Origin: Candidatus Buchananbacteria bacterium
Lineage (GTDB): Bacteria; Patescibacteriota; Patescibacteriia; CAIXNZ01
Assembly (NCBI GenBank): GCA_014729025.1
Contig: WJKP01000055.1
Coordinates: 1 to 40,385 of the forward strand
Reading direction: 5' to 3'
Length of the DNA stretch: 40,385 nucleotides
Of the stretch, positions 3,965-40,225 are shown piece by piece. Under the pieces are notes generated by a model. The model worked only from the letters and a program-made list of their open reading frames with translations. It did not search any database and had not been told where the DNA came from. How positions within the stretch are numbered: the stretch's first letter is position 1; every line of letters begins with the position of its first letter. The translations under genes were made by a program, and so were the position numbers.

Positions 3965-5524
3965 TTATTTCTTCTGCAACACAACCACCTGCACTTGCTG
4001 ATCTTTATCTGCAAATGATTTTGTTATTTGCAAATCAGTGCTGTCAGCCAATTTATCTAGTTCATCTACTTCGTACTTTTGTGAAACAAAAATAGTCACC
4101 TCTTCACCTTTTTTATATTCAATTTCTGACTCACCTCTTTTGACTGTTAAATCTTCCTTAATATGAATGATTTGTTTTATTTGATTATTAGCTTCATCAG
4201 CTACCATTCCCAATTCAACTTTATCCTCAGGAAAACCCAGATTACGCACCGTTGTCATGACAAACTCCCTGCCCTGCTCATTATCATAATTAGCCAATGT
4301 TTCTTGTAAATCCTTTTTCAAAGTTATGCCAACCAATAATGTGTCATCTTTAGTCATAGAATTACTAAGATTTTTTAATAAACTTTTCTGAAACTTATAA
4401 TCACCATTGCCTAAAGTATTACCCAACAAAGTAAATGTTTTGGGTTCGTCAGGTAATTTATCCTCTAATGATTGATTAAAATCCATTATTTCACCCTGAA
4501 TATTGACCTGAGGATTATCAATCTCCGCGGCAGCGGCAAAAACAAAAGCCGGATTAATATCAATCGGCACATAATCAATTTGATCTTGGGATTCCAATTG
4601 TTTTTGTAATAAAGGCTTTACTTTGGCTGCATCACCGGCACCCAAATCATAAATTATTTTATCACCCACTTCTTCGGCTAATTCGTCAATATGGTCTTTA
4701 ATCAAATCCATTTCAGTATTAGCCAGTTTATATTCTTGACTACGCAAAATTTCTAAAAATTTATCAGCACCTTCACCCTGATAAAAAATTGATTCATCAA
4801 ATGCACGGTTTTCTAAACCTTCAATAATTTTTTCTTCAGTTAGCTGGTCAATTTCCTGAGAAATTTCAGTATCTATTTTAAATTCCAAATCTTTAACATT
4901 CTCATCTACGGCTGCTAGAGGATAACATTTTTCCCAAATATATTTTTTGATTTCTTTAAAAATTTCAGGTAAAGCTCGGCGTAAAGCTGCTTGACCCAAA
5001 GAATGAGCCCGAGGAAAATCCACATTCAGCCCACCATTTTTAATATTTTTTTCCAATTGAGCTGTCAATTCTTTGGCACTTTCACTAGTTTTCCAATGCC
5101 TTTCTTTATCAGTTAACCCTATATCTAAAGTAAAATATTTTAATTTACCTAAACTTTCTTCATATAAAATAGCTTCCCAATCATATTCTTGAGGTTTATC
5201 ACCAAAAATTGGTCCGCTCAAATCAATCCGGCCTTTAACGGTTTCTACACTTTTAGGGGTTGAGAATCCGGCTGCACTATATTCTTCCCAAACATCTGTT
5301 CGTTCTCTGGAGCCTTTAGTAATCGATTCTATTTCTATACCATGAATTTCAAAATCCTCAAAAGATTCCCAGCCTTTTTCTTTGATATAAGCCAAAGCTT
5401 TTTTGCGTTTACTGATTTCTGCAAAAGAAGCTCCTTCTTTTGTCAAAGCCCAATACGAAAATTTCTCTTTTTTTTGACTTAAAGGTTTTTCCGGCTGAGA
5501 CATTTGTGGTATTTTTTCCGTCAT
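3965..5524 (-). CDS. EgtD-like SAM-dependent methyltransferase domain with a long N-terminal extension
   Basis: IIYDLGAGDAAKVKPLL, YVPIDINPAFV and FTLLGNTLGN resemble the histidine-specific methyltransferase (EgtD) family motifs. Confidence 0.7.
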   Translation of the reverse strand: MTEKIPQMSQPEKPLSQKKEKFSYWALTKEGASFAEISKRKKALAYIKEKGWESFEDFEIHGIEIESITKGSRERTDVWEEYSAAGFSTPKSVETVKGRIDLSGPIFGDKPQEYDWEAILYEESLGKLKYFTLDIGLTDKERHWKTSESAKELTAQLEKNIKNGGLNVDFPRAHSLGQAALRRALPEIFKEIKKYIWEKCYPLAAVDENVKDLEFKIDTEISQEIDQLTEEKIIEGLENRAFDESIFYQGEGADKFLEILRSQEYKLANTEMDLIKDHIDELAEEVGDKIIYDLGAGDAAKVKPLLQKQLESQDQIDYVPIDINPAFVFAAAAEIDNPQVNIQGEIMDFNQSLEDKLPDEPKTFTLLGNTLGNGDYKFQKSLLKNLSNSMTKDDTLLVGITLKKDLQETLANYDNEQGREFVMTTVRNLGFPEDKVELGMVADEANNQIKQIIHIKEDLTVKRGESEIEYKKGEEVTIFVSQKYEVDELDKLADSTDLQITKSFADKDQQVQVVVLQKK

Positions 5525-5693
5525 AATTTTAGATTAGCAAATTGGTAATTTAAACAACTGATTTATTAAAAATAATTATTAATGGTCAATTACCAATATA
5601 TTGAGTTTAATATAATTTATTTAAATTATCAACCAATTATTTAATTTTATAAACTAAAATTAGCCTAAAAATAAAGATTTATTTTAAAAACTA

Positions 5694-5722
5694 TTGACAA
5701 ATATTTACTCTTATGCTAAGTT
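5694..5722 (+). promoter_or_regulatory. putative promoter of the GC-rich lipoprotein gene
   Basis: TTGACA (5694-5699), 17-nt spacer, extended -10 TGC-TAAGTT (5717-5722). Confidence 0.5.
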
Positions 5723-5743
5723 GATATAATCTTTAAATAGAAA

Positions 5744-5820
5744 CAAAGGAGGTGTTCTTTGTAATCAATAAATATTTAATGGGTAAAGAAAACAAGTTAG
5801 CTTGCGTTTTAACGTAAGCT
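5744..5820 (+). promoter_or_regulatory. structured leader with a strong orphan SD and hairpin
   Basis: aaaggaggtg around 5745-5754, then TTG TAA at 5759-5764; AGCTTGCGTT/AACGTAAGCT inverted repeat at 5799-5820. Confidence 0.5.
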
Positions 5821-5860
5821 TGGGAAAAATCAACAAAAAAGGAAAGAAAGGAGAGAAAAC

Positions 5861-6994
5861 ATGAAAAGAGAAAGGCTTTCACTGATGGCAATGGTATTGG
5901 CTTTGGGCATGATCATGACCATGGCGATCGGCTGCGGCTCAGCCGAAGACGGCTACAACAACGTTCCCCAGAACCCGGTCATCGGCCCCGAAGAAATCGG
6001 CGAAGATCCGGCTCCCAACTCCAGCGACACCGAAAACGTAAGCGTGGCCATCGAGTTCACGGACGAGTACCTGGCTGCAACCCCCGAACTGGCCGAATGG
6101 ATGGCACTCAAAGAAGCCGAACAGGCCTGCGAAGAAAGCGGCGATATCTGCCCCCAGCTCGTAACCGGCGCCCCGCCTGTCCAGATCTTTGGAACTCTGG
6201 TTTCGCAGGACGCATGGCAAGACGATACTCGCTGGAACCCGTGGGATGAGACTCAGACCAACGTGAGAGACGTCTCCGCCTTTGTCAGCGGCAACGTGTT
6301 GACCATGTCGTTTACCGTCCCCGTGGGACGTTATTACCATCTGGGCTACATCGTCCAGGGCGTGATGATGTTCCATAACATCTCGGTCAACGGTGTGGCG
6401 ATTAACTCGTTCTGCACCCTGGGCGACCCGGTGAATTACTGGACTTGGGGGGTGGCCGCGTTCAAGGTCAACCGTCTCAGCGACGGATCGATAGTGGTAG
6501 AGGAGAGCGAATTCTGCACCGAAACCGGCTATACCGCGCTCTGGACATTGAGTGGCGTATCACAAGACAACCCGCTATACAGCGACAGTCCCTCGGTACT
6601 CCCCTACGATGACGGAGCTGACGGCGACGACGAAGGTCCGATCATGATGTCAAGCAATCTGATCTACAACACAGCACCGGTAGAAATCACAAACTTCAAC
6701 GCGGCCAGCGCCAGATATGAAGCGGATCTCTACCTGCTCGAAGGCATGGCCAGTCGGTTTGCCTGCTATCACCCGGGACGAGAAGTCACGGGCAGTACTG
6801 ACGTACCCTGCGCCGACCAGAAGCTGACCTTGACACCTCTGCCGTCCGGAACCGCTGGTGCCTCCCAGGAACTGAGGCATGCGGAAAATTTCCAGACCAC
6901 GTTGCCAGCGTACTACGAATTCACCATCAACGGCATCACCAGCGGTATACTCGACCAGGACGCCAACAATCGCGATACCGTCCTCGGTATCTAA
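5861..6994 (+). CDS. GC-rich predicted lipoprotein, function unknown
   Basis: SD ggagag upstream; signal peptide and lipobox-like MKRERLSLMAMVLALGMIMTMAIGC. The line at 5941 counts about 60% GC against about 38% for a MurA line (8941). Confidence 0.85.
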   Translation: MKRERLSLMAMVLALGMIMTMAIGCGSAEDGYNNVPQNPVIGPEEIGEDPAPNSSDTENVSVAIEFTDEYLAATPELAEWMALKEAEQACEESGDICPQLVTGAPPVQIFGTLVSQDAWQDDTRWNPWDETQTNVRDVSAFVSGNVLTMSFTVPVGRYYHLGYIVQGVMMFHNISVNGVAINSFCTLGDPVNYWTWGVAAFKVNRLSDGSIVVEESEFCTETGYTALWTLSGVSQDNPLYSDSPSVLPYDDGADGDDEGPIMMSSNLIYNTAPVEITNFNAASARYEADLYLLEGMASRFACYHPGREVTGSTDVPCADQKLTLTPLPSGTAGASQELRHAENFQTTLPAYYEFTINGITSGILDQDANNRDTVLGI

Positions 6995-7010
6995 ACCGTT
7001 TTCTTTACCC

Positions 7011-7043
7011 AAAAGCCCTGTACCATCCGGTACAGGGCTTTTT
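7011..7043 (+). terminator. rho-independent terminator
   Basis: AAAAGCCCTGTACC atcc GGTACAGGGCTTTTT. Confidence 0.9.
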
Positions 7044-7062
7044 ACATATTTAAAATTCAAAT

Positions 7063-8334
7063 TTATTCTTCATTAGCCATTAAAACTTCAAGAGCTTTAT
7101 CCATTTGCGGATCCAAATCCTGATTAAAATCTTCAACTGTTAACTCTACTTCCATATCCGGCTCGACTCCATCGCCTTCGATTGTATTTTCATTGGGTGT
7201 CAACCATTCAGCCACTGTTAATTTAATTGAAGAACCGTCTTTTAAGGGAAATAAAGTCTGCACAGAACCCTTACCAAAAGTAGTTTCACCAATCAAAGTT
7301 GCCAAATTATAATCTTTTAAAGCACCGGCTACAATTTCCGAACCAGAAGCACTGCCTTCATTAATTAAAACTACTGTAGAAAAATCCTTAAGTCTAGCCC
7401 GACCATTGACTTTATGAGGTTTTAATTTACCGTCTGCTGATTTTTCATAAACAACCACTTTATCTTCCACCCATTCAGCAGCTACATTAATTGCCGTATC
7501 CAAAAATCCACCCGGATTATTACGTAAATCCAAAATAATACCACGCGGATTTTTATTAATAATCTCCAAAACCGCCTGATTAAAATCATCGGTAGTGTCT
7601 TCATTAAAATAACGAATCTCTAAATGAACTATATTATTTTCTAATAATTCCCACTTAACACTTTGAATATCGATGTTTTGCCTGGTAATTTTAATTTCCT
7701 TAAAATCATCCAAACTATCACGACCGATTGTCAGGACCACGTCAGTACCCTTGGGTCCTCTGATTTGCTTAACAGCATAATCCAAACTAATCCCGGTCGT
7801 ATCCATGCCGTCAATTGCAAAAACTTTATCACCGCTTCGCAAACCGGCTTTTTTAGCTGGTGAATCAGGCAAAGGTGCAACAATAGTTAAACGATCATTT
7901 TTTATGGCTATTTCAGCGCCAATCCCTTCAAAAGTACCGGCTAATTCATCATTAAAATCTTTGGTTGTTTCCGGATCAAAAAACACTGAATGAGAATCAC
8001 CTAAAGCAGCCACACTGCCAGCCATTGAACCGTATAATAATTCTGTTTCATTGACTGGTTGATAAACATAATTATCTTCAATAATTTGCCAAACATCCCA
8101 GAAAAGGTCAAAATTAAGATCTTTAGATAAAAATTCCGGTTTTTCTGTTTTATTATAAATAGAACCATGATTATCATTTTTATAAACTATTTCCGGTTCA
8201 CTGGTCTGTCGACCGATCAATATCCCTAGAATAAAAACAATAAAAACTATCAACAAAATAGCGTATTGTTTTACAAATCTTTTAAAAACACTATCCGATT
8301 GATTTTTTGATTTAAATAATTTTGATTTAGGCAT
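7063..8334 (-). CDS. S41 family C-terminal processing peptidase (CtpA/Prc-like) with PDZ domain
   Basis: N-terminal TM segment, PDZ (GSGDKVFAIDGMDTTG-type region), catalytic NEGSASGSEIVAGAL and TTFGKGSVQTLFPL. Confidence 0.93.
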   Translation of the reverse strand: MPKSKLFKSKNQSDSVFKRFVKQYAILLIVFIVFILGILIGRQTSEPEIVYKNDNHGSIYNKTEKPEFLSKDLNFDLFWDVWQIIEDNYVYQPVNETELLYGSMAGSVAALGDSHSVFFDPETTKDFNDELAGTFEGIGAEIAIKNDRLTIVAPLPDSPAKKAGLRSGDKVFAIDGMDTTGISLDYAVKQIRGPKGTDVVLTIGRDSLDDFKEIKITRQNIDIQSVKWELLENNIVHLEIRYFNEDTTDDFNQAVLEIINKNPRGIILDLRNNPGGFLDTAINVAAEWVEDKVVVYEKSADGKLKPHKVNGRARLKDFSTVVLINEGSASGSEIVAGALKDYNLATLIGETTFGKGSVQTLFPLKDGSSIKLTVAEWLTPNENTIEGDGVEPDMEVELTVEDFNQDLDPQMDKALEVLMANEE

Positions 8335-28204: not shown

Positions 28205-29185
28205 TTAGCCTTTATAATTTATTTCTAGAATATCACAGGCACCGCAAACTTTTTTTTGATTTATTCTAAACCGTTTCAAATCCACAGAATGCCATAGTTC
28301 ATTTATCTCTTTATTTAAAGTATCACCTATTTCGCATCTTGGCAAAGCACAGCAAGGCGTGGCTTGGCCTTTCACATTAATATATAAATCAGCCAAAGTT
28401 CTCAAACAAAACTTGCCGCGACGATGCAGCCAAGGATAAACTTTTTTATAAATTTGCCGGGCGAAACCGTTAAAAGCCAAGTAAGGCAAAAAATCGACCT
28501 GTACCCTTTTATTTTTAGTATAATTTTCCAATTGTTTTACAAATATTTTTTCTTCTTGGGAGCTGGGTCTAGCAAATTGCTGAAAACGTATATCCAATCT
28601 TGAAATTTTCACCCGGTCAACGCCGATTTTCTCAGCATAATCAATAATCTTTAAAATATTATCTTCACCTTTTTGCGGATAAGTTGTTTGAAAATAAATC
28701 TGTGTTTGTTTGCCTAATTGGTTTCTTAATTGAATTAGTTTTTTAATATTAGCCAATTGGCCGGCAAGCTTATGACCGATAGTTTTATCATTTGATTCCA
28801 GTTCATCAATAGAAAAAGTAACGGCTTCAATATTCTGCTCTAATAAAAAATTTATTTTATGTTCATCAAGCAAGCTGCCATTACTGGTAAAACGAATTTT
28901 AAAGCCCTTATCTTTAGCCAATAAAACCATATCCAAAAATTGAGGATGGCACAAAGGCTCACCCCAGCCAGTTAAAATCAAATCAGAACATTGACTGGCA
29001 TCTATTCTAGCAATTATTTTTTTAAATAAATCAAAATCCATATGCTGTAAATTAACTTTCAAATCAAAACGCTGGCACATTGGACATTTAAAATTACAGA
29101 TATTAGTTATACCGATTTGTATAGTTTGAGGATAAGCCGGAGGCAAATAAAATAAGCGTCTGATAAATTGGTTTAATATATTCAT
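28205..29185 (-). CDS. radical SAM/SPASM domain protein
   Basis: ITNICNFKCPMCQRF (CxxxCxxC), LTGWGEPLCHPQF, C-terminal ATPCCALPRCEIGDTLNKEINELWHS...VCGACD. Confidence 0.93.
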   Translation of the reverse strand: MNILNQFIRRLFYLPPAYPQTIQIGITNICNFKCPMCQRFDLKVNLQHMDFDLFKKIIARIDASQCSDLILTGWGEPLCHPQFLDMVLLAKDKGFKIRFTSNGSLLDEHKINFLLEQNIEAVTFSIDELESNDKTIGHKLAGQLANIKKLIQLRNQLGKQTQIYFQTTYPQKGEDNILKIIDYAEKIGVDRVKISRLDIRFQQFARPSSQEEKIFVKQLENYTKNKRVQVDFLPYLAFNGFARQIYKKVYPWLHRRGKFCLRTLADLYINVKGQATPCCALPRCEIGDTLNKEINELWHSVDLKRFRINQKKVCGACDILEINYKG

Positions 29186-30339
29186 AATTGCTGGAAAATA
29201 TTTTTTAATTGAGCGGCTGATTTGGCCCAGTTGTATTTTTGGGCTTTTAACAAAGCCGCCTGCCCCATTTTTTGCTGTAACCCGTCATTATTAATTAATT
29301 TAGCTATTTGCTCGGCCAAATCAGCCGCATCTTTAATCTTACAAATTAAACCGGAGATCTCATTATCATAAACCTGTCTGACACCCGGTAAATCAGTGGT
29401 AATAACCGGCGTGCCGGCAGCCATTGCTTCAGTAGAAACCAAACCAAACGCTTCAGCCCGGTTAATTGACGGTAAGACATTAACCGATGATAAATTATAA
29501 ACCGCATTTAATTGCTGATCGTTTAATTTATTTAAAATAAAAACCAGTTTATCGATTTTCAAGTCAACTGTTTTATTTTTAAATTCATCAACTAAATCAC
29601 CCCGGCCAACCAAACATAATTTCAAATTATTATATTTTTCATTTAACCGAACAAAAGCATCCAGCAAATAATCAACGCCTTTAAAATAATGGGTTGACGA
29701 TAAATTACCAACATAACTAATCACTTTTTCATTCTCCTGATAATCGATTAATCTGGCTATTTCTTGCAAAGTTTCGTCATCAGCCGGTAATTTTTTAAAA
29801 ATTTCATAATTCAAACCAAAAGGCACTTCAGCAAATTTATTTTTATTTTTTTCTAAATACTTGGCAAGATTGGAATTTTGCGCATAATCAAAAGACGAAA
29901 CAATTATTTTATCAGCTAAACGCAATAAAATCGGCAGCCAAACTAAATTATAAAATTTAAAAATTAATTTACGTAAAAAATCCTGAGGCGGCATTGAATC
30001 CTGATGATAATAAACAACCAGTTTTTGGTCAGGATTAAAAAGTTTGCGCAAAATAATCGGTTCAGTCCCGCCAAAAAAAGGGTAATGAAAAAATAAAATA
30101 TCATAATTATTTAATTCTTTATATAAACCAGGCACAAAAGCGGCATTGCCGCTAGCCAATAACGGTTTAATAGCTTTTATTTTAAATTTGTCATCAGCAA
30201 ATTCCTGGTTATCATATTTAGGAAAAAAAGTTGTAAGTTCTAAACCTAAAGGCTGTAACGCCAAAGCAAAATTATAAGCCGTATTACCGATACCACCTTT
30301 ATATGGAGGAAAAGTTGAAACAATTTGAGCTATTTTCAT
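29182..30339 (-). CDS. GT4 family glycosyltransferase
   Basis: STFPPYKGGIGNTAYNFA; EAFGLVSTEAMAAGTPVITTDLPGVRQV. Confidence 0.93.
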   Translation of the reverse strand: MKIAQIVSTFPPYKGGIGNTAYNFALALQPLGLELTTFFPKYDNQEFADDKFKIKAIKPLLASGNAAFVPGLYKELNNYDILFFHYPFFGGTEPIILRKLFNPDQKLVVYYHQDSMPPQDFLRKLIFKFYNLVWLPILLRLADKIIVSSFDYAQNSNLAKYLEKNKNKFAEVPFGLNYEIFKKLPADDETLQEIARLIDYQENEKVISYVGNLSSTHYFKGVDYLLDAFVRLNEKYNNLKLCLVGRGDLVDEFKNKTVDLKIDKLVFILNKLNDQQLNAVYNLSSVNVLPSINRAEAFGLVSTEAMAAGTPVITTDLPGVRQVYDNEISGLICKIKDAADLAEQIAKLINNDGLQQKMGQAALLKAQKYNWAKSAAQLKNIFQQL

Positions 30340-30433
30340 ATGGTTACTAATTTATACCAAAGACCCGCCTTTTGGTACCAATCTAATACGAATATGCTAA
30401 TTTTGCCAATTAAGCTAGTATTTATTAGGTTCA

Positions 30434-31480
30434 TTACCAAATTATCAATTTTTTAATTATTTGCCAATATAAATTAAAAATAGGATTGGCTATTTTATCT
30501 AAAAGCCAATTATCAATCTCCTGATTGGTAATTTTACCAGTAAAATATTTAATAACCTGCTTATCTTTAACTTGGCGATACTTTTTTTTCTCTTGGCGAT
30601 GCTGAAAAATTTTCTGCCAGCTTTGAGGCTTTAAAAAATAAAGATATCCGCGTATTTTTTCTTGCCAAAACCCTGATTTTAAAGAAAATAAAAATAAACC
30701 CAATTCCATAACCAGACAAGCCGGTGTTATTAATAAAATACTCAACCATTTATAATTTTCCAAAATACAAATATAACGATTGCGTTCCATATAATAATAT
30801 TTTTTGACTGATCTTGAAAATTCGTATTTATGATAAACAACAGATTCCGGCACTACCATTATTTTATAACCGGCCATTCTCATCCGCCAGCCCAGATCCA
30901 AATCCTCATGGTACATGAAAAAATCAGGATCAAACAAGCCGATTTGTTTTAAAACTTCACTTTTCATCAATAAAGCAGCGCCAGAAGCATAAGCTATTTC
31001 AAAAGATTGTAAATCACCGCTCAACGGTTGATTTGCGCCCAAAGAATAACCAAACCCCAAATAATGGATCGCATTACCCAAAGAATTAACTTTATCAGTC
31101 TGCGGATGCAGCATTAAACGCGGCTGGACAGCTGCTATTTTTTCATCTGCTTCAGCGACTTTAATTATTTTTGATAAAAAATCAGGCTGGGAAATCGTAT
31201 CTTGATTAATCAATAAAATATAATCAAAGTCCCGCTGTAAAGCTTTGGCCATGGCCACATTATTACCTTGCGCAAAACCTAAATTCTGCTGATTAACTAT
31301 TATTTCAACTTGCGGAAAATTATTTTTAACAAATTCAACGGAATTATCACTGGAAGCATTATCAACCAAAATAATCTTATACAATTCCTGCGGATAATCC
31401 AAACTTAAAAGACTGCTCAAACAATCATGTAAATATTCCTGGCCATTATAATTAACTATAATAATTGCGACTTTAGGCAT
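30434..31480 (-). CDS. GT2 family glycosyltransferase
   Basis: AIIIVNYNGQEYLHDCLSSLL; ILVDNASSDNSVEFV; DPDFFMYHEDLDLGWRMRMAGYKI. Confidence 0.95.
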   Translation of the reverse strand: MPKVAIIIVNYNGQEYLHDCLSSLLSLDYPQELYKIILVDNASSDNSVEFVKNNFPQVEIIVNQQNLGFAQGNNVAMAKALQRDFDYILLINQDTISQPDFLSKIIKVAEADEKIAAVQPRLMLHPQTDKVNSLGNAIHYLGFGYSLGANQPLSGDLQSFEIAYASGAALLMKSEVLKQIGLFDPDFFMYHEDLDLGWRMRMAGYKIMVVPESVVYHKYEFSRSVKKYYYMERNRYICILENYKWLSILLITPACLVMELGLFLFSLKSGFWQEKIRGYLYFLKPQSWQKIFQHRQEKKKYRQVKDKQVIKYFTGKITNQEIDNWLLDKIANPIFNLYWQIIKKLIIW

Positions 31481-31552
31481 AAGTTTTTTTAAGTTTTAAA
31501 AGAGCAGAGAGACCCCTGCCCTTTTATTGCCGAATATTTAAAAATATAATAA

Positions 31553-32584
31553 TTAATCTTTAACGTTTTTTACAGAAGCCCAATTAATCATAACTTTATT
31601 AGCTTTGGCATATTCAATGGTTATTTCCAAGCCTTTTTCCAAAGTAACTATGGGGAACCACTCGATTTTTTGTTTAGCTAAACTAATATCAGGCACGCCT
31701 AAGTTTGACATGAACAGCAATGGATCAGCATAAGTAATTTCTGATTTTGAGCCGGTCATTGCAATAATTTTTTTAGCTATATCAGCTATCTTATGCTTTT
31801 TGGGGTTGCCTATATTAAGCGGGCCGGCCTCGGTTGAAGCCATTATCTTCATAGTAGCATCAATCACATCATTAATATAACAAAGTGTTGTAGTTAACTC
31901 TTGATCGCCGTAAATAATTAAGGGTTTATCATCCAAAGCCGCCACAATAAAATCAGGTATCATATGACCGATAAATAAAGGCATGCGCGGGCCATAAGTG
32001 GTAAATACTCTGATAATCTTGGCGTCAATATTATAAAATTCACGATAAGTAAAAACCAAAGTTTCAGCAAAACTCTTGCCCTCATCATAACAAGCCCGCG
32101 GAGTCAAAGGACTTTTGGGAAAATATTCGTTTTCTTTAACCATGTCTTTATCTTCCGGTACATCACCATAAACCACTGCTGAAGAATAATGTAATAATTT
32201 GGCTTTATATTTAACAGCTAAATCCAAAGCTCTGATTGTGCCCAAACTGTTTGTCTGGGCAGTAATTATTGAATTTTGTTTGAAATTTTTAGGCGACGTC
32301 GGGCAAGCTAAATTATAAATTTCCTGAATACCTTGAAATTTAACTTGAAAACGCTCTAATTCAGAATAACGTTCCAGATCATAAAGATTATTAACATCTT
32401 CATTAATAAAAATAAAATTTTCATTTTGCAATAAATGATCAATATTGGCCCGATCGCCGGTAATAAAATTATCAACACAAATAACTTTATTATCAACAAC
32501 CAATTTATCACAAAGATGAGACCCGATAAAGCCTGCTCCCCCTAAAACTAAAACATTTTTTTTCTCAAAAACAGCTTGTGGCAT
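31553..32584 (-). CDS. NAD-dependent epimerase/dehydratase, UDP-glucuronate decarboxylase (UXS)-like
   Basis: VLVLGGAGFIGSHLCDKL; CPTSPKNFK; TPRACYDEGKSFAETL; RVFTTYGPRM. Confidence 0.88.
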   Translation of the reverse strand: MPQAVFEKKNVLVLGGAGFIGSHLCDKLVVDNKVICVDNFITGDRANIDHLLQNENFIFINEDVNNLYDLERYSELERFQVKFQGIQEIYNLACPTSPKNFKQNSIITAQTNSLGTIRALDLAVKYKAKLLHYSSAVVYGDVPEDKDMVKENEYFPKSPLTPRACYDEGKSFAETLVFTYREFYNIDAKIIRVFTTYGPRMPLFIGHMIPDFIVAALDDKPLIIYGDQELTTTLCYINDVIDATMKIMASTEAGPLNIGNPKKHKIADIAKKIIAMTGSKSEITYADPLLFMSNLGVPDISLAKQKIEWFPIVTLEKGLEITIEYAKANKVMINWASVKNVKD

Positions 32585-32712
32585 ATTTATTTGAAATTAG
32601 TAATTAAGAATAATTATTTTAACTTATTTTAACTTATTAAATTGCCAATCAATAATCTCCTTATTCAGTATTTTAACAAAATCTTCTTGAAAAATAAAGG
32701 TTTTGGCTAAGT

Positions 32713-33132
32713 TTATTTTAAAATCGGTTTTTTGAATGTCCAATAACGATTGGCCAAAAAATTCCAAAAAAGTCCGACCATTATGGCAATTACTTTGGCT
32801 AAAAGATCATAAATTTGCAAATATTGTACTAAAGTAAATACAATTGAATTATTTAAAACAAAATAAACCGCATTAACACCGACAAATTTTAAATATTGGG
32901 TTTTTACATTCTTGGCTTTATCTCTAAAAGTCCAATGTTTATTAAAAATAAAACTGGCTGTCATGGCAATCCCTACTGATAATAAATTAGCGTATAAAAA
33001 ATAAACTCCCAGGACACGGCTAAATAATAAGTAAAAAATATAATCAAGCGCAGTATTACCCAGGCCGACCAGACAAAATTTTACAAACTGCCGACAAATT
33101 TCTTTTTTTAAAATTAGCTTGATTAACCACAT
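32713..33132 (-). CDS. GtrA family membrane protein
   Basis: ICRQFVKFCLVGLGNTALDYIFYLLF; SFIFNKHWTFRD; NFLANRYWTFK. Confidence 0.93.
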   Translation of the reverse strand: MWLIKLILKKEICRQFVKFCLVGLGNTALDYIFYLLFSRVLGVYFLYANLLSVGIAMTASFIFNKHWTFRDKAKNVKTQYLKFVGVNAVYFVLNNSIVFTLVQYLQIYDLLAKVIAIMVGLFWNFLANRYWTFKKPILK

Positions 33133-33141
33133 TTAAGCCAG

Positions 33142-34728
33142 TTAATTAGTAAATAAACCTTTATTTTGATCAATAGCAACAACCGTGTTTTTTTCTAAAA
33201 AAGGATCAAAGTCTTCCAATTCTTCAATTGGCTGACCGATTTGATAATTAACAAAAAAAGCCGCTGAAATATCAATAACCTGAGACTGCCAATTACTGCC
33301 ATATAACCCACTGGCCAGTTCTTCATTTTTAACCCAGCGCAAAACACTGCCTTGACTAACAGCATAAACCTTGGCATCTGACTGGATTTTAATTAAACGA
33401 GTACCGGGCCGAACAGTAACATTGCCGGACAAAGTTATTTGTGATAATTCATTAGCATTTATTTTTATAATCTTATTAAAATCATCATACCAGCTAAAAT
33501 AAGTGGCTGAGTCAGGAAAAACATAACGTTTACCGTTAATGGCCTGATAATAAATCGTTGATGAACCAGGCGTCTGGATTAAACGGGTCTCACCCGAATA
33601 TGACAATAAACTTTGCCAAACTTTAACCGGATTAACCAAGCCGTTACCCAATTTACCGATAAAACCAGGATTAACATCATCAATATTGTCAGTATTGTTT
33701 AAAATCAAATCAGTAATTTGTTGATTATTTAAGCTTGGTTCATAAGATTTTATCACCGCAGCCAATCCTGAAATAAGCGGTGCTGCCAACGAAGTGCCGG
33801 AAAAACCACTGCCATAATAATCTTGTAATTTAGGGACATCTGAATCATGAAACAACGTACCCCAAAAATTATCACCCGGGGCTATTATGTCCACACAGCT
33901 TGAACCGTAATTGGAATAACCGGCCAGTTTATTGTCTTTATCACTGGCACCGACACCAATTATAATATTTTTATTATCAAAACCTTGATGACAAACCGGG
34001 TACATTTTTTCAATATCCAAATCAACAACTTCACCCAAAAAATCCTCATTACCAGCTGCTACCACAATTACAAGACCGGCCTGATAAGCTTCATTTAAAG
34101 CAAATTCCAAGGCCTGATCATAAGAATCACCAACAAAACTTAAATTAATAATATCTGCCTGATTATCAATCGCATAATTAATCGCCTGAATAACATCTAA
34201 AGTATTACCGGAACCGTTTTGGCTCAAAACCCTTAACGGCATTATTTTAGTTTGCCAGCCCATACCGGTCCCGCCAATACCGTTATTGCCAACAGCAGCT
34301 GCGACTCCGGCAATAAAAGTACCATGCACAATCGCTTCTTCAATGCAAGTTTGGCGTTTGAAACAATTAGGATCATATTTGGGCCGAGGATCATTATTTT
34401 CTTCTATAAAATCCCAGCCATTAATATCGTCAATATACCCGTTTTGGTCATTATCAATGCCGTCACCTAAAATTTCATCATTATTAACCCAGACATTGTC
34501 ATGCAAATCAGGATGATCAGGGTCAATGCCTGAATCAATCATGGCAATTACCACATTTTTACTGCCGGTTTCCTCGGCCCAGACTTGAGGCATGTTTAAT
34601 TTATCCAAATACCATTGTTTATCATAACCGGGATCATTTGGCATTAATTCAGCTGCCATAACAAAATTACCTGTTAAAAACAGGCTTAAAATTAAAAAAA
34701 AGACGATTATTTTTTTGTTTAATTTCAT
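33142..34728 (-). CDS. secreted S8 (subtilisin-like) serine protease with the C-terminal shared domain
   Basis: Catalytic triad motifs VIAMIDSGIDPDHPDL, HGTFIAGVAA, GTSLAAPLISG; C-terminal YYQAINGKRYVFP domain. Confidence 0.95.
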   Translation of the reverse strand: MKLNKKIIVFFLILSLFLTGNFVMAAELMPNDPGYDKQWYLDKLNMPQVWAEETGSKNVVIAMIDSGIDPDHPDLHDNVWVNNDEILGDGIDNDQNGYIDDINGWDFIEENNDPRPKYDPNCFKRQTCIEEAIVHGTFIAGVAAAVGNNGIGGTGMGWQTKIMPLRVLSQNGSGNTLDVIQAINYAIDNQADIINLSFVGDSYDQALEFALNEAYQAGLVIVVAAGNEDFLGEVVDLDIEKMYPVCHQGFDNKNIIIGVGASDKDNKLAGYSNYGSSCVDIIAPGDNFWGTLFHDSDVPKLQDYYGSGFSGTSLAAPLISGLAAVIKSYEPSLNNQQITDLILNNTDNIDDVNPGFIGKLGNGLVNPVKVWQSLLSYSGETRLIQTPGSSTIYYQAINGKRYVFPDSATYFSWYDDFNKIIKINANELSQITLSGNVTVRPGTRLIKIQSDAKVYAVSQGSVLRWVKNEELASGLYGSNWQSQVIDISAAFFVNYQIGQPIEELEDFDPFLEKNTVVAIDQNKGLFTN

Positions 34729-34778
34729 TTTTTTAAAAATTTAAAATATCAACCCTGAAAATGCCAAGATCAGCTAAT

Positions 34779-34858
34779 GCCCTCGCTTGTCACGGGTAGC
34801 ATGGAGCCCCTGCGCCATGCCTTCGCTTGTCACGGGTAGCATGGAGCCCCTGCTCCAT
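34779..34858. repeat. 40-bp direct tandem repeat, 2 copies
   Basis: gccctcgcttgtcacgggtagcatggagcccctgcgccat then gccttcgcttgtcacgggtagcatggagcccctgctccat (2 differences). Confidence 0.9.
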
Positions 34859-34898
34859 GTCGGGCAATTGCGCCAAGAGCAGAGACTCTTGGCTACCC
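34834..34898. repeat. REP/BIME-like pair of inverted hairpins with GGGTA(G) feet
   Basis: Plus strand GGGTAG CATGGAGC ccct GCTCCATG; minus strand GGGTA GCCAAGAG tctctg CTCTTGGC. Confidence 0.65.
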
Positions 34899-35184
34899 CT
34901 TTTTTTATAATAATCAATAATATTACGAGCTGAATAAGACTTTATATTTTGAACCACTCTTGAAATTGTCAAATCCGGATACTTTTCCAAATCAAAATAA
35001 ATTAAAAAATGCACATGATCAGGCATCAGACAATAACCGTAAATTTTCAATGCCCATTTTTCTCTATAAAAATCCAAATTGGCTAAAAATAATTGGCAAC
35101 ACTTTTCATCTTTAAAATAAGCCTTATTATTAAATGTCCGAAATGTCACAAAATGAATATCACCCGGCTGATTAAATCTTTGCA

Positions 35185-36825
35185 TTATAATAACCCTTTA
35201 TCCTGATTAATGGTCTTGATTTGTTCAATTAATTGCCCGGGGTTATAATCCTCGGAATTTTTAATCTCACCTGCCAACTCATAATCAGTAAAAAAAACAT
35301 CAGGCACATCTTTGATTTTTTGCTGCCAATTATTACCGTAAACTGAATTAGCTATATTTTCCGAAGTAATCCATTTTAATTGCCCGTCTTGGTCAACAGC
35401 ATAAACTTTGGGCTCGGTTGTTATTTTAACCAAATAAACACCCGGTTTATAAGTAACATTACCACCGATCGGAATCAAAGCCAATTGCTGGTCAGTTATT
35501 TTTTTTACCTGGGAAAAATCATCATACCAGCTTAAATAAACGCCTTGGCTGGGAAAAACATAACGTTTACCGTCAGCGCCATAATAATAAACAGCCTGGG
35601 TACTGGCTTTAATTAAATCACCATAATCAATATCAGTATCTGCTAAACCAGGTTCAACTACTTTAATTACTGCTTGCCCCAAAATTGTCTGATCAATTGA
35701 AAATTTAATATTATGCAAACCAGGCTGCACCGAATAAACGTCAAATTCAATTTCACCGTTTTTATCTGATAAATTATTAGGTAAATTAACAAAAAGACCG
35801 GGATCAGCCGTATAATCAACAGACCAATTAGCAATCGGCTGATTGCCAGTATCACGTAATTTAATAATGCCCATTGCCGGATCCAACCCGCTATTAGTAA
35901 TGGTCGTATTATTCATGACAATATCGGAATTATCAGGTGAAAATTCTTGATTTACAACATTAACAGTAATCGGCGCGGTTTGACTAAAATTACCCCAATC
36001 ATCATAAGCCTGCAAACTAAGGGTGTATTCTCCGTCTTTTATATTTTGCCAATCATAAGTCCATTGATACGGCAAAACATTATAATTGGTAATAGCTAAA
36101 AGCTGGTCATTGATTTTTATGGCAAAAGCTTTCAAACCATGATTACCCTGATCACGAGCCAAACCTTTAATTAAAAAATGATCATTATTAATAAAATCAT
36201 TATCAGTTAAATTAATTATAACCAATTTAGGCCCTGTTTCATCATAAGCGACATTGGAAACAACCTGATTACTGTTATTTGTTAAATTTTTATCAGTTGG
36301 CCCGTTATTGCCTGAATCAAGAAAAATCCCAAAATCACCAACATCAAAACTGTTATTATTGTTTACATCAAGCAAAGCCGGTATTTGCATTTGAATAGTA
36401 CCGGTTTCTTCAATCAAACTATAAGTTTCAATAGACACATAAAAATGTAAACTATCGTCAATTGATTCGCTTAAATTATCAATATACCAGGATTTAAAAC
36501 CCGAAGAATAATCAAAATCACCAACAACTCTATCAATACCCATGCCCTGAAACCCTAAAGGCCCGTCATCAACCCATAACGTCATATATTTAATATGATT
36601 AAAATTACCGGCTGAACCACGGTTACGCAAAGAAATCGCCCGCACAACATCAGGTTCAAGGCTAATTAAAGTAAAATCCAAAACTAAATCATCAAAAGTC
36701 CCGGCTAAAAAAGTATCATAAGGCGCATGTAAATTAACAATAGCATTAGACTCAAAAGCCAAGGTATTATTGGGTAATAAAACCAAAACTAAACTTATAA
36801 CAATAAAATAAATTAATTTTTTCAT
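35185..36825 (-). CDS. secreted protein with the C-terminal shared domain
   Basis: Signal peptide MKKLIYFIVISLVLVLLPNNTLA; C-terminal AVYYYGADGKRYVFP...NQDKGLL. Confidence 0.9.
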   Translation of the reverse strand: MKKLIYFIVISLVLVLLPNNTLAFESNAIVNLHAPYDTFLAGTFDDLVLDFTLISLEPDVVRAISLRNRGSAGNFNHIKYMTLWVDDGPLGFQGMGIDRVVGDFDYSSGFKSWYIDNLSESIDDSLHFYVSIETYSLIEETGTIQMQIPALLDVNNNNSFDVGDFGIFLDSGNNGPTDKNLTNNSNQVVSNVAYDETGPKLVIINLTDNDFINNDHFLIKGLARDQGNHGLKAFAIKINDQLLAITNYNVLPYQWTYDWQNIKDGEYTLSLQAYDDWGNFSQTAPITVNVVNQEFSPDNSDIVMNNTTITNSGLDPAMGIIKLRDTGNQPIANWSVDYTADPGLFVNLPNNLSDKNGEIEFDVYSVQPGLHNIKFSIDQTILGQAVIKVVEPGLADTDIDYGDLIKASTQAVYYYGADGKRYVFPSQGVYLSWYDDFSQVKKITDQQLALIPIGGNVTYKPGVYLVKITTEPKVYAVDQDGQLKWITSENIANSVYGNNWQQKIKDVPDVFFTDYELAGEIKNSEDYNPGQLIEQIKTINQDKGLL

Positions 36826-36831
36826 AATTTA

Positions 36832-37220
36832 ATTAATATCAATTTTAAAAACACGATGATCAGCTAATTTCCGCCACAGGCAGACAGGCAGCCTCTGGCT
36901 GACATAATTGCGCCAAGAACAATATTTATACTGCGAAATATCAGTGGTTAAGCCGTGTTTAACGGGATTATCATGAATATATTTTAATTTTTCCTCAAAT
37001 TTTTTATCAGAATAAACATTAAAATCATAAAACCCAGCCTGCCAAATTTTCAGACAATCACGTGTTGACAGATAATTAAAGCCTTTCTCCCTACGGGTAA
37101 ACAAGGCTTTTATGCCTTGTCTAAAAAATTTTTCCTGCCGAAGCATAAAAGCTTCGGTTGCCATGTTTAGTTATCAGATATTTTGAAATCAATGAATATC
37201 ACCTGATTAAATTTAGGCAT
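36832..37220 (-). pseudogene. second degraded RAYT/Y1_Tnp-like copy: C-terminal half kept
   Basis: IWQAGFYDFNVYSDKKFEEKLKYIHDNPVKHGL is typical of the family C-terminus; upstream ATGCCTAAATTTAATCAG..GTGATATTCATT aligns with the start of the other copy but is frameshifted. Confidence 0.7.
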
Positions 37221-37222
37221 CT

Positions 37223-37846
37223 TTAATCTTTGGGAATCTGATTATATTGACTCAAATATTCATTTAAACGTTGCTGGTATTGATTTTTGTTTTCCTGATC
37301 AAATTCCAAGGAACGGTTAATTTGCTCAATAAAAGCTTGATTCGGTTCCAATAATTTATCCTGATACAAGGTTAATAATTCTTTATAAGCCAAAGTGTAC
37401 AAAGGAAAAACTTCCAAAATCTCATAATAATGTTTTTCAGCTTCTTTAAACTGACCTTGATCGGTTCTGACCCGCGCTAAACCCAAAATAATTTCCGGAT
37501 CATAAGGATCAACATTCAAATGCTGGGAAAAGGCAGTAATAGCCTGTTCATATGCGCCCAAATCACGATAAATATAACCCAAATTCAATAAAGAAGTCCG
37601 GTCAAACGGTTCTTCCTTTAAAGTATCAATAGCTTGCTCATATAACGCAAATTTATCATCTGGCAAATCCTCAGCAGTTAATTTCATATACTGCATACCT
37701 TCCACTGTTTCATAATCAGGCGCTGTTGGTTGGCTTGGCTGGTAATAAACAAAAATCAAAACACCTAAAATAAGAATAATAACTACTCCCCCAATTAAAT
37801 AAACCAAATTTTGCTGATTTTTCATATTTTCTGACAACTTTTTCAT
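37223..37846 (-). CDS. membrane-anchored TPR protein
   Basis: N-terminal TM; SLLNLGYIYRDLGAYEQAITAFSQHLNVDPYDPEIILGLARVRTDQGQFKEAEKHYYEILEVFP. Confidence 0.88.
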   Translation of the reverse strand: MKKLSENMKNQQNLVYLIGGVVIILILGVLIFVYYQPSQPTAPDYETVEGMQYMKLTAEDLPDDKFALYEQAIDTLKEEPFDRTSLLNLGYIYRDLGAYEQAITAFSQHLNVDPYDPEIILGLARVRTDQGQFKEAEKHYYEILEVFPLYTLAYKELLTLYQDKLLEPNQAFIEQINRSLEFDQENKNQYQQRLNEYLSQYNQIPKD

Positions 37847-37953
37847 AAAAATACAATAATTTAATAATTAAGGATTTCTTTATTAATTTTAACTTAAAAT
37901 CAGGATAAATTCAACCAGCTTTAAAATCCATAAATTAATCATTTTAAATCAAA

Positions 37954-37976
37954 GAGCAGGTTTTAAACCTGCCCCT
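37954..37976. repeat. hairpin repeat GAGCAGGTTTTAAACCTGCCCC
   Basis: GCAGGTTT/AAACCTGC stem; related to 31501..31525 and 40314..40336. Confidence 0.5.
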
Positions 37977-38023
37977 ATAAATTTATGACTTCCAAATAAC
38001 AATAATAATCTATTCATACAAAA

Positions 38024-38046
38024 AAAGAAGCCTAATTAGCTTCTTT
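38024..38046 (-). terminator. rho-independent terminator for the 38193->38068 ORF
   Basis: Minus strand AAAGAAGC taattag GCTTCTTT followed by T-run. Confidence 0.8.
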
Positions 38047-38067
38047 ATATAAATGCCCTATAAAAAA

Positions 38068-38193
38068 TTAAATTACCGAAGTTTGCAATACATCAAATCT
38101 TTGATTTAAATCGGCCAAATCTTTTTTGCTGGCAACTTCTTCTCTGGTGGCAAATACTTTAACCAATTTTTCTATATCTTTATCTTCTAGCAT
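38068..38193 (-). CDS. small predicted coiled-coil protein (41 aa), below the track cutoff
   Basis: Translation MLEDKDIEKLVKVFATREEVASKKDLADLNQRFDVLQTSVI*; followed by a terminator. Confidence 0.65.
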   Translation of the reverse strand: MLEDKDIEKLVKVFATREEVASKKDLADLNQRFDVLQTSVI

Positions 38194-38264
38194 AAAAATA
38201 TTTATGACTTATATCAATATTATAACAATTTATTTAAAATTGTCAAAAAATTTTTATTGCTCAT

Positions 38265-38314
38265 TTTATTCTTCGCATGATTGCAGATTGCTGCGAATGA
38301 ATTCGCAGCTACCC
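38265..38314 (-). repeat. REP-like hairpin with GGGTA foot
   Basis: Minus strand GGGTA GCTGCGAAT tc ATTCGCAGC; 22-bp tttattcttcgcatgattgcag recurs at 40364..40385. Confidence 0.65.
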
Positions 38315-38337
38315 TAGGACACATTTTCCCTAAAAAC

Positions 38338-38366
38338 AAACCCAGCCCCTTAAAAGGGGCTGGGTT
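38338..38366 (-). terminator. strong rho-independent terminator of the 40189->38411 gene
   Basis: AACCCAGCCCCTT tt AAGGGGCTGGGTTT GTTTTT on the minus strand. Confidence 0.9.
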
Positions 38367-38410
38367 ATGAGAATGGTGCAAAGTCAGAAAACCTTGCGTA
38401 CAAAATTCAT

Positions 38411-40189
38411 TTAGAATGATGTGCCAAGACCATTAACCGGTAAGTTTTCTAATAAATAACCGTTAGAAGCAAGACCTGAACCATCAAGCCATTCAAGACA
38501 ATTATTATTCTTGATCGTATCAACATCAGAATCATCACAACCACCAGCACCAGCAGTATCATTTGAGATTAAATCAACAGTAATTGCATCATCTAAAACA
38601 GATGATGCACCTGTTGTATTTAATACAACTCTATAAGATTTACTTGTCGTTGGATTAATATTCATTGGACTGGAACCGGCAAGGCCTGGGTTATCCAATT
38701 CAACTACGACTTCAATAATATCTGGGCCAGCACCAAGACAAGACGTAGCTGAAGGTGTAGCTGTAATAGTAGCATTAGCAGCTAAATCAGTTGATAAATC
38801 ACCAGTATCATACAGTTCAAGAGTTGATGGGATAGAACAAGCCCAATCAGTACCAGCAAAATCAGAAGCACTTAATTTAAAAGTTAAATGATTAATAGTT
38901 GAAACATTCCCATTACTATTAGATAAATCAAAAATCAAATAATAATCCAGGCTCGGCACAGCATCAATTCTCTGTGGTGAGGCGATATTAAGTGAAAAAT
39001 CTAAAATAGTTTTTCTGGCATATAATGGGTTGCCAGTACTATCAGAGTCACCGGCATTATTCGCAGTCGCAAAACTACCAGTAGCCAGGCATTGGGCTTT
39101 TGTTAAAGCGTTAATAGCTGGATTCAAATCAGCGTCTTGAGACTCTAATGTTAAAGTAAATGGATTATTACCAGCCAAAGCACCAGCGGCATCAGTCTGA
39201 ACATTAACCATAGCTGACATATAACTGTCCACGCCTGCAGGCACATACCAATTCATTAAAGTAAATGAAGCAATACCACCAACCACGGCACTTGATTTTG
39301 TTTCATAAGTGGTTTGGCCGGCATCAGTTGGGTAAGAAATTGAAATACTGGCAACATTAACAGCGCCGCTACCGCCAACTGAAATAGTCGCCTCTGTTAT
39401 TTTAAAAGCCTGATTAGTTGCTTGCCCCAAAACTCTTAAAGCTTTTTGGTCAGTCGCACCCATTTGCACTAATCTGGTCGCGTATTCAGAATCAGCAATA
39501 TCAGCTGACAAACCTATAAAACCAGGTTCTGGAGCGCCACCAAAGCTAACCGGTGGCTGCGCAATTGGTTGCGTTGTTGATTCTTCAGTTGAATCTATTG
39601 GTTCTGCTATTTCTTCTGTTTCTTGAGGCGCTTGAGGTTCCTGTTGTTCTTCTGTTTCTTGTGTTTCCGAAACTAAAGACTTATCCATATCAATTGTCTG
39701 AACCGAATCCATAGCTTCTTCTTTATCATAATCAGCACAATCAGTAATGGGCTGGCCAATCGTATAATTAATAAAAAAAGCATCAGAAATATCTGCTACT
39801 AAATCTTCCCAATCAGCACCATATAAACATTCAGCAATAGCTTCAGTGGTGACCCAACGCAAGGTACCATCTTGAGAAACAGCATAAACTTTTGGGTCAG
39901 TATTAATTTTCACCATCTTGGTTCCCGGCCTAAAAGTAACATTACCGCCAATCGGAATAGCAGCCAATTCTTCGTCAGTAATTTCTTTAACTTCAGAGAA
40001 GTTAGCATACCATGTTTCGTATGTTTTTAGATCTGGAAAAACATAACGTTTAGCATCAACGCCATAGTAATAAACTGCTGAAGATGACGCTTTTATAAGA
40101 TCACCTGGCGCTAAATCAGCGGCGTAAACAGCCGGTAAAAATACTAAGCAAAACATGCCAAGCAAAGTCAAAAAAAGAATTTTTTTCAT
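38411..40189 (-). CDS. large secreted (possibly S-layer-like) protein with the N-terminal shared domain
   Basis: Signal peptide MKKILFLTLLGMFCLVFLPAVYA, domain AVYYYGVDAKRYVFP...DMDKSL, Q/E/P-rich linker, then a Ser/Thr/Ala-rich region. Start corrected to 40189 after SD gggaga. Confidence 0.88.
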   Translation of the reverse strand: MKKILFLTLLGMFCLVFLPAVYAADLAPGDLIKASSSAVYYYGVDAKRYVFPDLKTYETWYANFSEVKEITDEELAAIPIGGNVTFRPGTKMVKINTDPKVYAVSQDGTLRWVTTEAIAECLYGADWEDLVADISDAFFINYTIGQPITDCADYDKEEAMDSVQTIDMDKSLVSETQETEEQQEPQAPQETEEIAEPIDSTEESTTQPIAQPPVSFGGAPEPGFIGLSADIADSEYATRLVQMGATDQKALRVLGQATNQAFKITEATISVGGSGAVNVASISISYPTDAGQTTYETKSSAVVGGIASFTLMNWYVPAGVDSYMSAMVNVQTDAAGALAGNNPFTLTLESQDADLNPAINALTKAQCLATGSFATANNAGDSDSTGNPLYARKTILDFSLNIASPQRIDAVPSLDYYLIFDLSNSNGNVSTINHLTFKLSASDFAGTDWACSIPSTLELYDTGDLSTDLAANATITATPSATSCLGAGPDIIEVVVELDNPGLAGSSPMNINPTTSKSYRVVLNTTGASSVLDDAITVDLISNDTAGAGGCDDSDVDTIKNNNCLEWLDGSGLASNGYLLENLPVNGLGTSF

Positions 40190-40202
40190 AAATTTTCTCC
40201 CT

Positions 40203-40225
40203 GCTCTCAAAGAATTAATGAGAGC
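40203..40225 (-). promoter_or_regulatory. 5'-UTR hairpin just upstream of the secreted protein gene
   Basis: GCTCTCA ... TGAGAGC 7-bp stem next to the SD; TATAAT-like -10 (near 40258-40263) upstream on the minus strand. Confidence 0.5.

Follow-up and report, generated by a model that had tools for sequence, protein, structure and literature searches.

The 40,385-nt stretch analysed here, contig WJKP01000055.1 of a Candidatus Buchananbacteria genome (assembly GCA_014729025.1; hereafter the window), encodes three secreted proteins that share a domain of ~145 amino acids (aa): an S8 protease, an immunoglobulin (Ig)-like protein of 546 aa and an S-layer-like protein read from a 599-aa open reading frame (ORF). 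We found that this module consists of two tandem repeats of ~52 aa followed by a docked tail with an I-x-x-DKGL end. Very probably it is a pair of repeats of the type found in EccB, and we consider it moderately likely that its role is to bind an envelope polymer of the cell without a covalent bond. To our knowledge, how Patescibacteria retain proteins at their surface is largely unknown; these surfaces mediate contact with host cells.

That the module is a real domain is near certain. An earlier note on this DNA, made from the sequence letters, had proposed a shared domain, and the three copies were recovered where it had placed them, C-terminal in two proteins and N-terminal behind the signal peptide in the third, each with the closing motif it had listed (IDQNKGL, INQDKGL and IDMDKSL). 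The copy of the 599-aa protein is 50-53% identical to the other two (E 1e-44 to 1e-53), which is far beyond chance. The extent of ~145 aa given in the note was also right, whereas the internal duplication had been overlooked: the two halves align over their whole length (hhalign P = 9e-5). Pfam and NCBIfam scans gave no credible match in the module region of the three proteins. The consensus of 87 divergent copies reads GDLIK....AVYYYG.DGKRYVFPN.KTYFTWY.DF..VK.I.D..L..IPIGGNVTYRPG.KMVKITTDPKVYAV..GG.LRWV..E..A..LYG..WN..IDD.PD.FF.NY..G..I.

A single-repeat hidden Markov model (HMM) was grown from the four repeats of another protein of the same genome (L018, contig C36). Results showed that it matches all 170 domain proteins, with at least two repeats in 169 and exactly two in 154; the four-repeat seed, before growing, matched 23 domain proteins at E<1e-3. 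The wider repeat reads roughly DGTLVKxxxxxxVYLIENGKKRPFPSxEVFxxxGYxWxxVxxVSDxELxxYPxG, and repeat 1 of the module is rich in aromatic residues (19% F/W/Y versus 8% in the background). Using a loose pattern, the closing motif was located C-terminal of the repeat pair in 124 of 148 complete proteins. It precedes the pair in four copies (L074, L029 and two in L094), which have a Cys just ahead of the domain, a second Cys in VYYC and a chain that stops right after repeat 2. Judged from sequence, this looks like a circular permutation with a putative disulfide staple. Such a permutation would explain why chains can stop at the motif, which completes the fold; the motif is a part of the fold and not a sorting signal. 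The near-invariant NVT loop suggested N-glycosylation, an idea that was dropped because the genome has no STT3. A protein of Ca. Falkowbacteria (L128 2376-5777, + strand) carries two full modules in tandem, that is, four repeats.

A window copy was modelled with AlphaFold using the alignment of 87 natural copies. The model reached a predicted local distance difference test (pLDDT) of 97.4 and a predicted template modelling score of 0.89 across all 150 residues, including the closing tail, which is docked (pLDDT 94-97). Each repeat of ~52 aa folds as beta-beta-beta-alpha-beta-alpha-beta, and the second repeat modelled alone still gave a pLDDT of 92. When the whole domain was compared with the PDB by Foldseek, the top 11 matches were all chains of EccB1, EccB3 or EccB5, with E-values between 2.4e-3 and 6e-2 and probabilities reaching 0.95; a sharp drop followed, the next match being noise. 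Superposition of the whole domain on EccB was poor (root-mean-square deviation of 12-19 Å), presumably due to a different arrangement of the repeats. A single repeat was therefore compared separately, and its top nine matches were again all EccB (TM-score 0.50-0.66, 2.7-4.3 Å). Both the whole and the half-domain models have the fold and length of the EccB repeats R1-R4 (~50-57 aa, a small four-stranded sheet and two helices).

The sequence link to EccB is weak but specific and runs through four-repeat paralogues. The EccB profile PF05108, whose Pfam gathering cut-off is 27 bits, matches the four-repeat proteins L165 (6.6e-6, 25.5 bits) and L162 (4e-4) of the same class. A scan of 58 class genomes yielded six weak PF05108 matches and none above the cut-off, this profile being the extent of the search for a type VII secretion system; all six belong to proteins that contain these repeats, and in five of these proteins there are four, like in EccB. 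The window copies have two, and the four-repeat number of EccB is confined to paralogues of the L018 type. EccB belongs to the core of the type VII secretion system of mycobacteria, and EccB1 has its four repeats around a core (Wagner et al., PMC4769845), on an N-terminal transmembrane helix and inside a secretion complex. In contrast, the module has two repeats, stands alone without a core and is found on unrelated secreted proteins. It shares the EccB repeat fold but is not EccB itself. The earlier note could name no family; although no Pfam or NCBIfam name stands, EccB-type repeats now describe it. Sequence matches in the PDB to PQQ or designed propellers and, through the letters AVYY, to antibody heavy chains were rejected as chance, with few bits per stretch or a short motif.

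Proteins carrying the module are almost uniformly predicted to be secreted. Among 167 complete carriers, a somewhat redundant set in which some loci overlap, an N-terminal signal segment was found in 161 (96%), compared with 92 of 364 background ORFs (25%), using a hydrophobicity rule for a basic-hydrophobic N-terminus and not a trained predictor. Most of the carriers lacking this segment look like mis-called starts. No further transmembrane segment was present in 163 carriers, and none of the 167 contained LPXTG. The module occupies the N-terminal end of 108 carriers, the C-terminal end of 45 and an internal place in 8, and another 6 consist of little else. Its fusion partners include S8 peptidase, Big_1/Big_7, glycoside hydrolase (GH) families GH114, GH26 and GH44, a YCF48-like propeller, M23 peptidase (L074) and cupredoxin. 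In a relative (L194) the orthologue of the S8 protease lacks the module, which is therefore separable from catalysis. These results bear out the earlier suggestion of a common cell-surface module; carriers that were mostly cytoplasmic, which would have contradicted it, were not found. The module together with a cupredoxin-like domain also makes up genes of ~265 aa (L058 6372-7169, + strand, and similar ones), often directly after a gene for a ~470-aa module protein.

The 1.08-Mb genome contains 11 module matches, not only the three of the window, in proteins of ~196 to 1,173 aa. The module is nearly restricted to a single class of Patescibacteria, a group of ultra-small bacteria. Across the class sample, 145 of 193 genomes carry the module, with up to 16 copies per genome. 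The named relatives with the module are Ca. Uhrbacteria, Falkowbacteria, Kuenenbacteria and Buchananbacteria, a group known as class ABY1. In a sample of the phylum, nearly all genomes of the same class carry it; matches elsewhere are fewer, and most of these are weak and probably due to the general repeat. A tblastn search with a window copy against phage and plasmid sequences gave no match, and the open-access papers searched contain no earlier description of the module. A typical class-type module protein also occurs in a contig filed under Ca. Methylomirabilis (L056, DYHP01000033.1, a metagenome-assembled genome), which is probably mis-binned.

The gene order around the window copies is conserved in relatives: glycosyltransferase(s), epimerase/dehydratase, GtrA, S8 protease, Ig protein and large S-layer-like protein, with orthologues at 38-77% identity. 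There, the position of the 599-aa protein is held by a protein of ~1,140-1,340 aa with an N-terminal module. The idea that the bodies of the S-layer-like proteins form one conserved family was rejected, one body being present in only 25 of 145 genomes; the module is therefore kept while bodies diverge. Neither a sortase nor an SLH domain (PF00395) was found in the genome, and Pfam detected no SLH domain in the three window proteins.

From this evidence, we infer that the module binds a polymer of the cell's own envelope, either peptidoglycan or a wall-linked glycopolymer. The I-x-x-DKGL end of the tail packs on the repeat pair and closes the fold, and the module would hold otherwise unanchored secreted proteins at the cell surface: a protease, a peptidoglycan peptidase, glycoside hydrolases, and Ig-type and S-layer-like proteins. 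Attachment, as put forward in the earlier note, is thus the best explanation of the EccB/PlyCB-type fold, the fusion partners and the genome context, with the ligand assigned by inference. Two known systems offer parallels. Repeat 1 of EccB1 is reported to be weakly similar to PlyCB, the subunit that tethers a phage lysin to the wall (Wagner et al., PMC4769845), and PlyCB and other wall-binding domains of endolysins are likewise fused to or partnered with wall enzymes; PlyCB differs in forming an octameric ring and has no sequence match to the module. SLH domains resemble the module in that they, too, are small repeats placed N- or C-terminally on secreted proteins of many kinds, S-layer-like ones included, and lie beside polysaccharide genes, but they have another repeat in another number and no sequence match to it. 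On our best reading by analogy, the module would work like SLH without being a member of that family. Sortase substrates do not offer a parallel, given the absence of both LPXTG and sortase.

The wider repeat family may have cell-surface polymers as its common thread. In a four-repeat relative (L163 508-2685, + strand), a D-Ala-D-Ala carboxypeptidase domain (PF00768, 8e-22) forms the C-terminal part behind the EccB-type repeats. Repeats are also found behind the GT2 domain of Bacillus CgeD, a spore-maturation glycosyltransferase with two of them in its C-terminal region. A CDP-glycerol transferase of Priestia ends in them, and a surface protein from an archaeon combines them with LGFP repeats. 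PHROG_9616, whose genes lie between those for a minor tail protein and a holin in Streptomyces phages, has two repeats of the same family; it matches the own-genome paralogue L018 (2e-29) but not the window S8 and 599-aa proteins, and a signal peptide is not obvious in the phage protein. Against viral structure models, the best match was a protein of 115 aa from a Rhodococcus phage (E 1.3e-6, TM 0.60/0.74), and weak matches included M23, CHAP, lysozyme and amidase phage proteins. It is conceivable, though we advance it tentatively, that EccB R1-R4, the CgeD tail, PHROG_9616, the repeats of wall enzymes and the module form one superfamily of glycopolymer-binding repeats, which in this class replaces SLH and sortase as the main means of protein retention, that of the S-layer-like protein included. 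L018 itself (4922-6547, - strand) is a four-repeat protein of 541 aa. Its N-terminal half contains the stretch ILATLQKEQS, which recalls lysozyme-like enzymes, and gave no Pfam or PDB match; a related protein (L160) has a weak glucosaminidase match.

Several observations weigh against binding to the cell's own wall polymer. No structure match in the PDB passes E = 1e-3, and the window copies themselves have no PF05108 match in a Pfam scan. PlyCB is not among the 50 Foldseek matches listed, the link to it coming from the EccB1 paper (PMC4769845), and the endolysin LysIME-EF1 matches weakly (E 2.1). CgeD, which is a glycosyltransferase and not a surface protein, and the CDP-glycerol transferase lack a signal peptide, and the repeat family is therefore not always extracellular. 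Carriers with M23 and GH domains could act on the wall of another cell. Wall binding by EccB is a published suggestion without experimental support (Wagner et al., PMC4769845), and EccB5 dimerises mainly through R1 and R4 (PMC8131196), so that a protein-protein role also fits the fold.

This last point could mean that repeat pairs associate with one another or with the lattice of an S-layer, assembling enzymes and adhesins on a shared protein scaffold. The presence of the module both on an S-layer-like protein of ~1,200 aa and on the enzymes encoded beside it, and the many copies in some genomes, would agree with such docking. However, a separate receptor is not apparent, given that the module of the S-layer-like protein does not differ in kind from that of the other carriers. 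In several genomes there is a single copy, and repeats of this family are also present in phage proteins and in enzymes that act on glycans; we regard docking as unlikely. Many Patescibacteria are epibionts, and the module might instead direct released enzymes and adhesins to another cell, a host or prey, whose envelope it would bind in the manner of endolysin binding domains. The lack of another anchor in the carriers, the M23, GH44, GH26, GH114 and S8 enzymes among them and the place of the related phage gene next to a holin gene speak for this idea. Yet each cluster includes among its carriers a large S-layer-like protein, which should coat the cell that makes it, the D-Ala-D-Ala carboxypeptidase with related repeats is a typical own-wall enzyme, and the cluster is conserved beside polysaccharide genes; we regard targeting of another cell as quite improbable. 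The sorting function suggested in the earlier note, in which an export machine would read I-x-x-DKGL, draws on the chain ending at the motif in two window proteins and is hardly credible, since nearly all carriers already have an N-terminal signal, the module is more often N-terminal, leaving the motif mid-chain, the motif comes before the domain, with the new Cys pair, in the permuted copies, the tail is docked in the model and sortase is absent.

The coordinates of the module copies and of the genes around them are given in Table 1. The protein read from the 599-aa ORF probably starts at the ATG at 40189, giving 592 aa.

Table 1. Module copies, their parts and neighbouring genes in the window
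Feature	Position	Strand	Basis
Domain copies (three window proteins)	33154-33582, 35191-35628, 39674-40111	-	
Secreted S8 (subtilase) protease, 528 aa, module C-terminal	33142..34728	-	PF00082 E=8e-49; syntenic orthologues with module
S8 protease copy, repeat 1	33433..33582	-	Single-repeat HMM 47 bits, residues 383-432; domain match
S8 protease copy, repeat 2	33235..33396	-	Single-repeat HMM 67 bits, residues 445-498
S8 protease copy, closing motif IDQNKGL	33154..33174	-	Sequence; equivalent tail docked in model
Secreted Ig-like (Big_1/Big_7) protein, 546 aa, module C-terminal	35185..36825	-	Big_1 below cut-off here, above cut-off in orthologue L054
546-aa protein copy, repeat 1	35464..35622	-	Single-repeat HMM 65 bits, residues 402-454
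546-aa protein copy, repeat 2	35278..35433	-	Single-repeat HMM 57 bits, residues 465-516
546-aa protein copy, closing motif INQDKGL	35191..35211	-	Sequence
Secreted S-layer-like protein, 599-aa ORF, module directly behind signal peptide	38411..40210	-	
599-aa protein copy, repeat 1	39947..40105	-	Single-repeat HMM 62 bits, residues 36-88
599-aa protein copy, repeat 2	39755..39916	-	Single-repeat HMM 71 bits, residues 99-152; AlphaFold pLDDT 92 alone
599-aa protein copy, closing motif IDMDKSL	39674..39694	-	Sequence; helix 142-145 of model
Neighbour genes: radical SAM, glycosyltransferases (GT4, GT2), NAD epimerase/dehydratase, GtrA	28205..33132	-	Pfam

Two partial REP-associated tyrosine transposases flank the gene of the 546-aa protein (34790-35185 and 36829-37164, - strand), one fragment keeping the N-terminal and the other the C-terminal part of the profile. 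The surface cluster seems to be a recurrent site for these transposases, because relatives L054, L196 and L197 have longer copies (174-211 aa) within the same cluster. At the 3′ end of a transposase fragment lie two tandem GC-rich copies of 40 nt (34777-34856, 95% identical), a length that is not a multiple of three. Elsewhere in the window, positions 6001-8000 have a GC content of 47%, compared with ~32% in the rest, and contain an ORF of 377 aa with no Pfam match.

In a genome such as this one, about ten surface proteins can be recognised by this one module, which thus gives access to the surface proteome of the class and can serve directly as a tag when binding or localisation is tested. 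Through the link to EccB, an old suggestion becomes testable, namely that its repeats are what anchors the type VII secretion system in the wall. A profile of the repeat would, in addition, annotate many proteins now called hypothetical in bacteria, archaea and phages.

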